DNA of 56,221 nt from an uncultured Bacteroidota bacterium. Its GTDB lineage: Bacteria; Bacteroidota; Bacteroidia; Bacteroidales; P3. Where the stretch lies: assembly GCA_902784465.1 (NCBI GenBank), contig CACZUZ010000015.1, forward strand, positions 1 through 56,221. Direction: 5' to 3'. The notes beneath the pieces are model-generated. The model was given only the letters and a program-made list of their open reading frames with translations, was not told the origin of the DNA and searched no databases. A program made the translations under genes and the position numbers. Below, piece by piece: positions 12,999 through 15,071 of this stretch (the first letter of the stretch is position 1; each line of letters opens with the position of its first letter).

Positions 12999-13029
12999 TT
13001 TGCCGAATGGGGGAAAATATGTATCTTTG
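12999..13029 (+). promoter_or_regulatory. Consensus Bacteroidota promoter before the structured leader
   Basis: TTTG at 12999-13002 and TATCTTTG at 13022-13029 are separated by exactly 19 nt, matching both elements of the Bacteroidota sigma-factor consensus. It begins 10 bp after the stop of the ketosynthase fusion and should start transcription near 13036, about 410 nt before the AMP-ligase ATG. It shows that the AMP-ligase/hydrolase pair can be expressed separately from the upstream operon. Confidence 0.8.
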
Positions 13030-13159
13030 CCATGTCTCATAGGAACAACCACGATGGTGGAATTTCACTGAAACAACAATAACACAGCATAATACACTCA
13101 AGCAATTATTAACTGCACAAACAAAAAAACAACATGTAGTAAACTGATAAAAATAAAAA

Positions 13160-13440
13160 ACATATGAGCTGACGCTCTTGTTCTCCTGTAGAAATTGTCT
13201 GGTAAACATTTTAGCGATGAGAATAAGAAGACGTTAAGTTCACGTCAGGGGCGTGAATTTTCGTACACTTATTAATCGCACGGGTATTACCAGACACCCT
13301 CTACAGAAATAAGGCAGTTATTACGAAAGAATCACGCCTTTCTTCATGCCCCCTTATTTACCCTAACAGCGACTGCCGGCTCTACATAGTTCCTGCGGGG
13401 GTGCCGAAAACTGCATAACAGAGTAGGCAAATAACATTTT
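13160..13440 (+). ncRNA. Structured leader RNA or cis-regulatory element, unknown family
   Basis: The untranslated stretch before the AMP-ligase contains nested complementary arms: GAGC/GCTC (13166-13169 with 13174-13177); CTGTAGA/TCTACAG (13186-13192 with 13300-13306); GTCTGGTAA/TTACCAGAC (13197-13205 with 13287-13295); GCGAT/ATCGC (13214-13218 with 13275-13279); AATAAG/CTTATT (13222-13227 with 13268-13273); TTCACG/CGTGAA (13239-13244 with 13252-13257). Together they make one ~120-nt irregular rod. Downstream, GGCAGT/ACTGCC (13313-13318 with 13372-13377) encloses GAAAG/CTTTC (13325-13329 with 13338-13342), and CCCCC/GGGGG (13349-13353 with 13397-13401) would cross it as a pseudoknot. No U-tract terminator precedes the gene. 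I do not recognise tmRNA, RNase P, 6S, SRP or a cobalamin element in it. Orientation is inferred from the upstream promoter. Confidence 0.6.
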
Positions 13441-13445
13441 TCGAA

Positions 13446-15071
13446 ATGAATCAATACGACGAAATTGTGATGTCTGTCTCAAAAAATCCAGATAGGGAAG
13501 CCTTGAGATATTTCGGAGTGTCTGTTAGTTATCGGCAGTTGGGTGAAATGATAGAAGCAGTGGCATCAGGATTATACAATATTGGCGTCAGACCTGGTGA
13601 TAAGGTATGTCTTGCCTTACCGACCACCCCTGAAAGCATTGCCGCAGTTTATGCATTGAACAAAATTGGTGCCGTAGTCAGTATGATAGACGTGCGACTA
13701 ACACCACGTCAAGTAGCGTCAATAGCCAACAACCTGAATGCCAAAATGCTGTTCATTATGAACTTCACTATAAAAGGCATATCCAAGGTGGCTAACGAAA
13801 TGTGTGTTAAGAACATCGTTGTGATGAGAGGCTGTGAGCTATTCCCCAAAGCAGTATCCTCATGGTATTCGTTTGGCGAGATATTTAATGGTAGGCGTAA
13901 AGCCTATAATTCCACCGACAAGTTCATGCACTGGAACAACGTAATAGAGCTTTCTGGTGGCGATACACCCCGTCATGAATGGCTTTCAGATGCTCCTCAG
14001 ATGATATTTCAGACGTCTGGAACGACCGGCAGGTCAAAGAGTGTAATGCTAACTGCGGAGAACATCGCCGTAGCCACAACACATGTTAGAAAGGGCAAAT
14101 TATTATTTATGCCTGCTGATAATGACACCGTACTTTGTTTGATACCCATATTCGCGTACTCAGGTTTCGTCACAACTGTACATGCACCGTTGCGATATGG
14201 TATGTCTATTATTATTGTACCAATATGGAAACCCAAAGATTTCATAAAAACAATAGCCAAGCACAAACCGCAGCATGTTTTCTCCGTACCATCAAATTGG
14301 GAAACAATATACAATAAATCAAATTCCACCTTTGACTTGTCATGTTTGAAGACAGTTATGGTTGCTGGCGATGTAATGAATCCTGATTTTGAGCATGACA
14401 TAAACAACTATCTCCATCACTGTGGGTGCAGCAGCAACGTTATCAAGATGTATGGCTTGACCGAAACTGGAGGCATGGTTGCCTTTACCCCGCAACTATC
14501 GCCACATAAATATTGTTTAGGGTTCTCTGGCAAAGTGGATTTCGGTTTTAAAGTAAAGATTGTTGACGGCGAGGTATGTGTGCTGCACCCGACAAAACTA
14601 CTGGGCTATTATAACAACAAAGAGGCGACAGATAACCTTCTACGACAGCACGAAGATGGGCTGGTGTGGTTGCACACTGGCGATCATGGGCATTTCGACG
14701 AAGAAGGGAATTTATATGTGACTGGCAGAATAAAGCATATGCTGGTGCGGTATGACGGTACAAAAATATTCCCTATTGAAATAAAAGAAGCTTTGATGCG
14801 CCACCCAGATGTACTTGACTGTGCAGTTATAGGCTGCATAGATAAAGAACACCCACAAAGCAGTGTACCAATAGCATTTTGTGTTGTCGGAAACAAGGGA
14901 AGGCTGTCAACATCTATCATTGTACGTTATGTGAACAAAGAATTACCTGTCCACTTACGTCCTACGAAGATAGTAACAATTGACAAACTACCCACAATGG
15001 GAAACGGCAAAGTAGACCTTGTGAAATTGCAGGAAATGGCAGATTCGGAAAACACCAATACTTTAAGTTGA
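13446..15071 (+). CDS. ANL-superfamily acyl/aryl-AMP ligase
   Basis: 541 residues. ATP-binding P-loop FQTSGTTGRSKSVML near residue 187, the MYGLTETGG motif near 338, HTGDHGHFDE and GRIKHMLVRYDG hinge region near 410-435, and the C-terminal catalytic lysine Lys522 in GNGKVD are all intact, so both adenylation and thioesterification steps look possible. In an aryl polyene pathway it activates the lyase-derived coumaric-type acid and loads it on an ACP (ApeH role). Codon use is AT-richer than the ketosynthases just upstream. It has its own promoter and ~410-nt leader, unlike the other biosynthetic genes. Its stop overlaps the next start (ATGA). Confidence 0.88.
   Translation: MNQYDEIVMSVSKNPDREALRYFGVSVSYRQLGEMIEAVASGLYNIGVRPGDKVCLALPTTPESIAAVYALNKIGAVVSMIDVRLTPRQVASIANNLNAKMLFIMNFTIKGISKVANEMCVKNIVVMRGCELFPKAVSSWYSFGEIFNGRRKAYNSTDKFMHWNNVIELSGGDTPRHEWLSDAPQMIFQTSGTTGRSKSVMLTAENIAVATTHVRKGKLLFMPADNDTVLCLIPIFAYSGFVTTVHAPLRYGMSIIIVPIWKPKDFIKTIAKHKPQHVFSVPSNWETIYNKSNSTFDLSCLKTVMVAGDVMNPDFEHDINNYLHHCGCSSNVIKMYGLTETGGMVAFTPQLSPHKYCLGFSGKVDFGFKVKIVDGEVCVLHPTKLLGYYNNKEATDNLLRQHEDGLVWLHTGDHGHFDEEGNLYVTGRIKHMLVRYDGTKIFPIEIKEALMRHPDVLDCAVIGCIDKEHPQSSVPIAFCVVGNKGRLSTSIIVRYVNKELPVHLRPTKIVTIDKLPTMGNGKVDLVKLQEMADSENTNTLS

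Follow-up and report, generated by a model that had tools for sequence, protein, structure and literature searches.

Purine and cobalamin riboswitches are transcription-terminating RNAs with kissing loops, and the leader RNA considered here resembles them in that a predicted loop-loop clamped domain lies upstream of a terminator/antiterminator-like pair, but differs in having no Rfam riboswitch match and in preceding genes that share no pathway. The leaders of Bacteroides capsule operons are targets of UpxY, a NusG paralogue acting in antitermination; compared by description, the likeness lies in early termination within the 5' leader of an accessory surface locus, whereas the associated genes differ. 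DUF805b (RF02914, clan CL00115), for which the Weinberg 2017 paper is said to be the source, is matched by the last 35 nt of the present leader below the family cut-off and by seven other copies from the genus above it, but it corresponds only to the 3' tip, lacks the double-domain fold, the P5/T switch and the mini-ORF, and occurs alone elsewhere in the same genome (L003, L093). The attenuated tetQ leader of Wang et al. 2005 reportedly has a short leader peptide. In a review (PMC5418344), tetQ of Bacteroides is a case of attenuation in the structured leader of a Bacteroidota gene, and in this it is similar; in the present RNA, however, the ORF has 1–3 codons and is kept only in part of the RNA family, and the core switch is terminator-like. 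The STAXI motif, a pseudoknotted RNA candidate near DNA-handling genes whose name includes antirestriction, is described (PMC2864571) as a set of repeated small pseudoknots, of a different fold, and the table of the same article gives no Rfam number for the motifs Bacteroides-2 and GUCCY-hairpin. In the open-access literature no paper with the term "DUF805b" was found, and among the matches listed nothing concerned this leader RNA. The class appears new, the comparison covering Rfam 15 and the open-access literature.

The window, that is the whole stretch of 56,221 nucleotides that was analysed, carries this RNA between a promoter and the gene of an aryl polyene AMP-ligase. A sequence-only reading of the window had proposed there a long structured leader with nested perfect arms, and overall this observation is confirmed, in that the named arms are present, homologues exist and the arms covary, the phenomenon being larger than was stated. 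The features at the borders of the leader are as follows.

13000–13029, + strand: Bacteroidota-type promoter TTG ... TATCTTTG, from the sequence and a motif scan, with the −7 box at 13022–13029
13134–13139, + strand: start-stop mini-ORF ATG TAG, from the count of upstream regions in the genus
13166–13177, + strand: small 5' hairpin GAGC-TGAC-GCTC, conserved in alignment A1, with no covariation seen
13446–15071, + strand: downstream gene, an AMP-binding acyl ligase of 541 aa (Pfam AMP-binding 3.2e-58 on the first 518 aa)

The promoter had been placed at 12999–13029, and a TTG followed by TATCTTTG is indeed found, ending at 13029. All the arms that had been listed are at their places: CTGTAGA/TCTACAG at 13186–13192/13300–13306, GCGAT/ATCGC at 13214–13218/13275–13279, and also TCTGGTAA/TTACCAGA, AATAAG/CTTATT, TTCACG/CGTGAA and the GAGC/GCTC of 13166–13177. 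The folding energy of 13030–13445, at −103.4 kcal/mol, is matched by none of 100 dinucleotide shuffles (−79.6, sd 5.2; z −4.6). In the genus a −7 box of the form TAnnTTTG stands at −53 to −62 from the start of the element model in 46 of 89 copies, and within 300 nt of it in 58 of 89 against a background of 0.18 per 300 nt. The −7 box of the window is more distant, at −136, and so the window leader is some 76 nt longer than is usual; a 16-codon ORF (13032–13082) lies in this extra stretch between promoter and element and begins about at the expected transcription start. At the other end the ATG of the AMP-ligase gene lies 17 nt past the leader element.

Homologues, which the sequence-only reading had proposed to look for, are plentiful, and 37 distinct copies show compensatory changes in the arms. 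A sequence search with the 501-base region gives relatives in 73 of 120 genus genomes, with up to six matches per genome, some of these being the 3' tip only. Distribution counts were made with the rod covariance model R1, which finds the element in 134 of 190 family genomes (11 of 12 genera), often in several copies, and in 88 of 393 order genomes (56 of 206 genera); in a phylum sample of 395 genomes drawn evenly, at E up to 1e-6, it finds 19, of which 18 are from other orders of the same class. A pattern scan of named genomes yields at least 119 loci, the model confirming 75 of 80 in one part and 38 of 39 in the rest, and the titles among the matches listed are mostly of rumen or gut Bacteroidales and Paludibacteraceae, with nine from Fibrobacter, five of them confirmed (L249, L252, L293, L307, L317). 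Eight places are found by covariance model in Fibrobacter intestinalis ATCC 43854 and two in Phocaeicola massiliensis DSM 17679. A confirmed copy of 72 bits on a contig titled Clostridium sp. MAG (L297, JAMPGY010000001.1) could be a transfer or a misbinned contig. The window's own genome has, besides the window copy, a strong second copy (C22:24716) and weak ones at C3:16226 and C41:32908, the other model matches falling on the antisense strand of the first two and on one place that is weaker still. By eye the two weak copies (L368 on G000:C3 and L370 on G000:C41) share an unusual central stem and precede MBOAT-like and PLD/helicase-like genes.

The fold was parsed segment by segment in alignment A1, which holds 37 non-redundant genus copies, and has the following parts in the window.

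13177–13185, + strand: A1 helix, 5' strand CTTGTTCTC, pairing with 13219–13227 (326 of 333 cells, 0.979 against 0.947 shuffled; 3 of 9 pairs with double changes)
13219–13227, + strand: A1 helix, 3' strand GAGAATAAG, partner of 13177–13185
13186–13192, + strand: P1 helix, 5' strand, pairing with 13300–13306 (235 of 259 cells, 0.907 against 0.488 shuffled)
13300–13306, + strand: P1 helix, 3' strand, partner of 13186–13192
13199–13205, + strand: kissing loop 1 (P2), CTGGTAA, inside hairpin h1, pairing with 13287–13293
13214–13218, + strand: P3 helix, 5' strand, pairing with 13275–13279 (178 of 185 cells, 0.962 against 0.542 shuffled)
13275–13279, + strand: P3 helix, 3' strand, partner of 13214–13218
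13268–13274, + strand: A2 helix, 5' strand CTTATTA, pairing with 13307–13313 (257 of 259 cells, 0.992 against 0.963 shuffled; 1 of 7 pairs with double changes)
13307–13313, + strand: A2 helix, 3' strand AAATAAG, partner of 13268–13274
13282–13299, + strand: hairpin h2, GGGT...ACCC, with kissing loop 2 TTACCAG at 13287–13293 (double changes in 3 of 4 pairs, one of these in a single copy)

Across the 37 distinct copies pairing holds in 94.7% of cells, and 203 cells carry changes on both sides, where shuffles give 74.1% and 57.5, and with partners slid by 1–3 columns at most 39.5% are paired with at most 38 double changes. For the full pseudoknotted structure of 46 pairs in 8 helices the pairing is 96.0% of 1678 cells with 252 double changes (shuffles 82.7% and 68; slid versions at most 46.6% and at most 45). 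P1 and P3 are hardly conserved in sequence, only their pairing being maintained, and a structure-blind mutual-information scan places their 12 pairs within its first 13; its first 30 include pairs of h1, P2, A1 and h2 too, among pairs outside the structure. The weaker covariation of A1, A2, h1 and h2 is because their sequence is conserved. The 37-copy parse gives A2 as CTTATTT:AAATAAG, and its junction-side pair (the last base of CTTATTA against A13307) is mismatched in the window and in one other copy (2 of 37). The P2 pairing CTGGTAA:TTACCAG holds in 237 of 259 cells (0.915 against 0.830 for re-dealt partners), and in far copies the two loop regions have an exact complement of at least 7 nt in 106 of 113, against 73 of 560 for swapped partners. 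There the kissing loops have been replaced wholesale, for example by CCGCCAA:TTGGCGG or CGCCAAA:TTTGGCG in place of CTGGTAA:TTACCAG, with others besides and 59 distinct segments in all.

In the consensus A1, P1, A2 and P3 abut with no unpaired bases (alignment columns 43/44 where A1 ends and P1 starts, 81/82 where P3 ends and A1 resumes, 142/143 where A2 ends and P3 resumes, 179/180 where P1 ends and A2 resumes), which implies a four-way junction; on the opposite side P1, h1, P3 and h2 meet again and both hairpin loops are able to kiss. The comparison of copies thus supports two predicted hairpin domains, A1 with h1 and A2 with h2, joined by P1, P3 and the loop-loop kiss P2. Because the two helix sets cross, energy folding cannot show their coexistence, and it is from the abutments and the covariation of both sets that all double-domain helices are inferred to exist at once.

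The fold is then probably not a rod. The sequence-only reading had built its arms into a single rod of some 120 nt, and while the arms stand, the rod as a fold probably does not: AATAAG:CTTATT and, in the minimum-energy fold, the outer CTTGTT:AATAAG are complementary without covarying, and the same strands covary with other partners. The rod helices use A1 and A2 strands in other combinations, 13177–13182 with 13308–13314 and 13221–13227 with 13268–13274. The minimum-energy rod was dropped as the main model, its helices P0 and P4 showing no covariation (500 of 500 shuffles as good for P0, 411 of 500 for P4), and on 136 copies including far ones P0 scores 738 against 738 shuffled and P4 723 against 723, of 816. 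In that 136-copy test the far-copy A1 and A2 strands were chosen by their own pairing, so that the gains of A1 and A2 are inflated and the alignment-based counts give the fairer picture. As the A1 and A2 strands resemble each other, rod and cruciform might interconvert by exchanging four strands, an idea that rests on three or four copies and is not claimed.

Downstream of the double domain, the pseudoknot that had been suggested fares unevenly. Its CCCCC/GGGGG pairing persists in the majority of the 37 copies without covarying, and GGCAGT/ACTGCC is not conserved, the other copies in alignment A1 having mostly CGGCTTCC at the place of the window's CGACTGCC. The 3' domain helices GCCTTTCT:AGAGTAGGC, CGGCTTCC:GGAAGCCG and GCAG:CTGC are kept and show no covariation in the mutual-information scan.

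The very tip of the leader is where Rfam has something to say. No Rfam family is present in the window at curated cut-offs, riboswitch families included, and in 32 far loci no riboswitch family appears up to E 0.1 (12 loci) or 0.01 (20 loci). Under a lax threshold, the known-class match that the Rfam scan does return is confined to the tip, the rest of the element having no credible match.

13394–13429, + strand: DUF805b motif, an H-type pseudoknot with GCGG:CTGC and GCC:GGC (cmscan RF02914, 30.2 bits against a cut-off of 35.6, lax threshold)

Its GCGG:CTGC, at 13395–13398/13411–13414, and its GCC:GGC are both present, next to the start codon. The lax scan also returned U12, snR66 and CrcZ far under their cut-offs, and other loci gave microRNA matches; all were dismissed as chance. 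DUF805b is matched in 18 of 18 scanned genus loci, over the cut-off in eight, of which seven are copies of the element and the eighth (L003) is a stand-alone DUF805b of the window's own genome. It was not found in 11 loci, from the genus and elsewhere, chosen for having another 3' end, and outside the genus it occurs in 1 of 12 and 4 of 20 loci (5 of 32), over the cut-off in L169. DUF805b is therefore neither universal to the element nor confined to the genus. By eye, the own-genome over-cut-off copies L003 (G000:C10:31953–31988) and L093 (G000:C25:10498–10530) have no large 5' element, L093 standing directly after a promoter and before a gene with a lipoprotein-like start. Also by eye, a different 3' pseudoknot, like CTGAAGAGGCAACAGGATAAAACCGCC, replaces DUF805b in L030, L046, L048, L054, L063, L066, L067, L070, L075, L077 and L078, its GGC:GCC becoming GCCC:GGGC in L048.

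Between the two hairpin domains sits a further hairpin, P5, whose 3' part can pair instead with a segment further downstream.

13238–13258, + strand: P5 hairpin, switch segments 1 and 2, antiterminator-like, with strands GTTCACG/CGTGAAT (96.3% of cells paired in the genus)
13250–13264, + strand: segment 2, helix T 5' strand GGCGTGAATTTTCGT, pairing with segment 3
13323–13338, + strand: segment 3, helix T 3' strand ACGAAAGAATCACGCC, pairing with segment 2
13339–13344, + strand: U tract TTTCTT after helix T, interrupted here, from the pattern scan

Since both use segment 2, P5 (1:2) and helix T (2:3) exclude each other. In 77 far copies P5 pairs at −19.2 kcal/mol with its own strands and at −16.5 with swapped ones, helix T at −18.5 and −13.0, so the two helices are sequence-matched within a copy and of near-equal strength; in the genus the strands vary too little for such a swap to be a test (helix T and P5 own −17.9 and −18.0, swapped −17.5 and −18.0). 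The helix T stem of about 15 pairs is followed by the U tract, and its loop of 58 nt is unusual for an intrinsic terminator; a simple terminator scan limited to loops of 3–8 finds none on the + strand of the window. A first count of T nucleotides after the predicted helix T duplex showed 2.44 per 8 nt in far copies, no excess over the background of 2.48, the reason being that the duplex as predicted frequently extends beyond the tract; in the genus the figure was 3.22 against 2.60. Made after this null result, a test for the pattern [AG]CG[CT](C) followed by a U tract finds it in 35 of 37 genus copies (reversed-string control 0), often with an interrupted tract, and in 78 of 113 far copies (control 1), being missing in the other 35. 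In the window the nested energy of the P5 state is −102.1 kcal/mol against −87.3 for helix T with A1 and A2, the P5 state being 15 kcal/mol better. By eye, P5, helix T and U tract are arranged in the same way in Fibrobacter and three copies from other Bacteroidia. Taken together the comparisons support a candidate three-segment switch made of mutually exclusive, near-equal P5 and helix T followed by a U tract.

Upstream of the element, an ATG followed by 0–2 codons and an in-frame stop lies between promoter and element in 83 of 86 distinct genus upstream regions (31 start-stop, 49 with one codon, 3 with two), while stops in the other two frames give 22 of 86 and 13 of 86 and equal-length shuffles a mean of 17 and a maximum of 29; the genus copies being related, the 83 are not independent events. 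In 53 copies from outside the genus it is seen 29 times (in shuffles 11 times as a mean and never more than 23), and it follows that the mini-ORF is not part of the core switch. In three copies outside the genus with a very near promoter (L119, L145, L150) a 5'-terminal hairpin takes, by eye, the place of the mini-ORF. The genus additions, this mini-ORF and the small pseudoknot (DUF805b or the other) shortly before the start codon, probably tune ribosome access.

A fixed place before genes is a property of the copies in general, and quite different genes are concerned. Of 49 copies reaching the 3' end of the model, 46 have an ORF of at least 45 codons beginning 15–40 nt after it, against 11 of 49 on the divergent side. 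In the genus the 84 first downstream proteins, taken by a simple ORF rule, form 49 clusters. Six of 30 scanned pass a Pfam cut-off, namely the window's AMP-ligase, a PDDEXK nuclease, a C5 methyltransferase, TerB, a peptidyl-arginine deiminase and an InlB-repeat protein, and no common function was found, with 19 of 30 having no Pfam family and 9 of 10 no NCBIfam family. Outside the genus, Pfam on 109 first downstream proteins gives BspA-type LRR_5 13 times, N6_N4_Mtase 6, N6_Mtase 5, EcoRI_methylase 2, D12 2 and C5 methylase 1, with some overlap. DNA methyltransferases come to about 16 of 109, as a raw tally with no background rate, in which 13 were seen individually, one of them under its cut-off, and the rest are from tallies. 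Small HTH proteins of about 75 aa are found by motif search downstream of at least 20 of 113 far copies, Pfam recognising few of them. A family of this length with the motif IGxxI...QGRSxxWLAxxLxCxRxNxYxIF follows the RNA in L165, L168, L142, L148 and L188–L239, with varied genes next. In Fibrobacter L249 the next gene is by eye, from its sequence, that of a type III-like methyltransferase. The copies thus precede diverse accessory genes, the most noticeable outside the genus being those of small HTH regulators, DNA methyltransferases and LRR proteins, and the link to restriction-modification genes and small regulators suggests that the RNA takes part in controlling mobile accessory genes.

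That the leader would act on starter-acid activation, as had been suggested from the AMP-ligase, does not hold, given the 49 clusters and a homologous AMP-ligase gene lacking the leader. That gene is present in 3 of 119 genus genomes (E up to 1e-100), with the leader before it in the window's genome (G000) and in G103 and absent in G090, so the leader is an optional attachment. Since genus copies precede quite other genes, the signal cannot be tied to one pathway, and the downstream genes point to no common ligand. It was also observed that arms and 5' flanks are common to copies before unrelated genes (L001, L002, L013, L017, L039, L051), as if recombining, L017 and L002 sharing v1/v3 and L002, L013 and L051 the 5' flank.

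On balance the RNA is best taken as a cis-acting, riboswitch-like attenuator of a class absent from Rfam and not specific to aryl polyenes. The part of the earlier suggestion that stands is that of a structured cis-regulatory leader, possibly a riboswitch, for which the covariation, the fixed place before start codons and the terminator/antiterminator-like pair all speak. Clamping of the two domains by a ligand or factor would allow P5 to form and the RNA polymerase to read on into the gene; with no clamp, segment 3 would displace P5, helix T would form with the U tract behind it and transcription would stop. Candidates for the clamp are a ligand, an ion, a protein or a ribosome. In L142, L148, L168 and L172 an ATG directly follows the U tract, and there helix T may instead block translation.

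If the clamp were a protein, termination would be decided without a small ligand by whichever protein binds the RNA, be it an antitermination factor such as UpxY or LoaP or the small HTH protein whose gene lies downstream. The capsule-operon leaders that UpxY targets are counted for this, as is the small HTH gene after at least 20 of 113 far copies, but by the same motif search most far copies have no adjacent HTH gene and no HTH family is among the 30 scanned genus proteins, so that a protein-read leader seems rather unlikely. Less likely again is that a ribosome stalled or recycling on the start-stop mini-ORF alters the folding of the leader, as in leader-peptide attenuators: however well the mini-ORF is kept in the genus against out-of-frame stops and shuffles, only 29 of 53 copies outside the genus have it, against up to 23 in shuffles, the codon between start and stop varies, and the window's ATG is 32 nt before the first hairpin. 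The translational attenuation of tetQ in Bacteroides, as stated in a review (PMC5418344), is the precedent in its favour. A structure that does not switch, and merely protects the messenger or spaces the start codon, would suit the very stable fold, the fixed place before start codons and the strong preference for the P5 state in the window; it is slightly less probable than the ribosome-read reading, since an RNA that does not switch hardly accounts for two mutually exclusive, near-isoenergetic helices that are matched in sequence outside the genus and have a U tract after them.

Two further explanations are both very improbable. Several copies per genome, a pseudo-symmetric inverted repeat, and arms or flanks common to copies before unrelated genes (L002, L013, L051; L017, L002) are what a DNA element would have, with the inverted repeat serving a recombinase or mobile element and no RNA being involved, whereas a shared spacing from the promoter and from the start codon, a single orientation with respect to the gene, a one-sided U tract and inner hairpins with kissing loops are not. 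Counted against it too are the lack of an exact match of the A1-helix pattern in IMG/VR and of any match of the window's element in phage records, and listed with these points is a P. massiliensis query that matched one plasmid record. The leader's own promoter and possible terminator could also give rise to an independent small RNA that ends before the gene, for example as a by-product of early termination, at about 310 nt in the window; the element nevertheless keeps one place and direction with respect to the genes after it (46 of 49 copies with a start codon no more than 45 nt away), and the possible terminator is followed, in the genus, by a further structured motif.

The riboswitch-like attenuator can be extended, tentatively, to a switch RNA class across Bacteroidia that may have been carried into Fibrobacter with restriction-modification genes. 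Its double junction, locked by kissing loops, might sense a signal useful to defence or accessory genes, such as methylation state, phage attack or a nucleotide second messenger, and so gate transcription of horizontally moving cargo, and in one genus it would have become a composite leader with a start-stop mini-ORF and a second pseudoknot. The RNA is common, being in 134 of 190 family genomes, yet Rfam recognises only the tip of the window copy. The fold of this RNA, in which two long-range helices and a kiss zip two hairpin domains together, would merit structural study, and cultured hosts exist in Phocaeicola massiliensis DSM 17679 and Fibrobacter intestinalis ATCC 43854. For the biology of these bacteria it would mean control at the RNA level of restriction-modification and other accessory genes in a major gut and rumen lineage.
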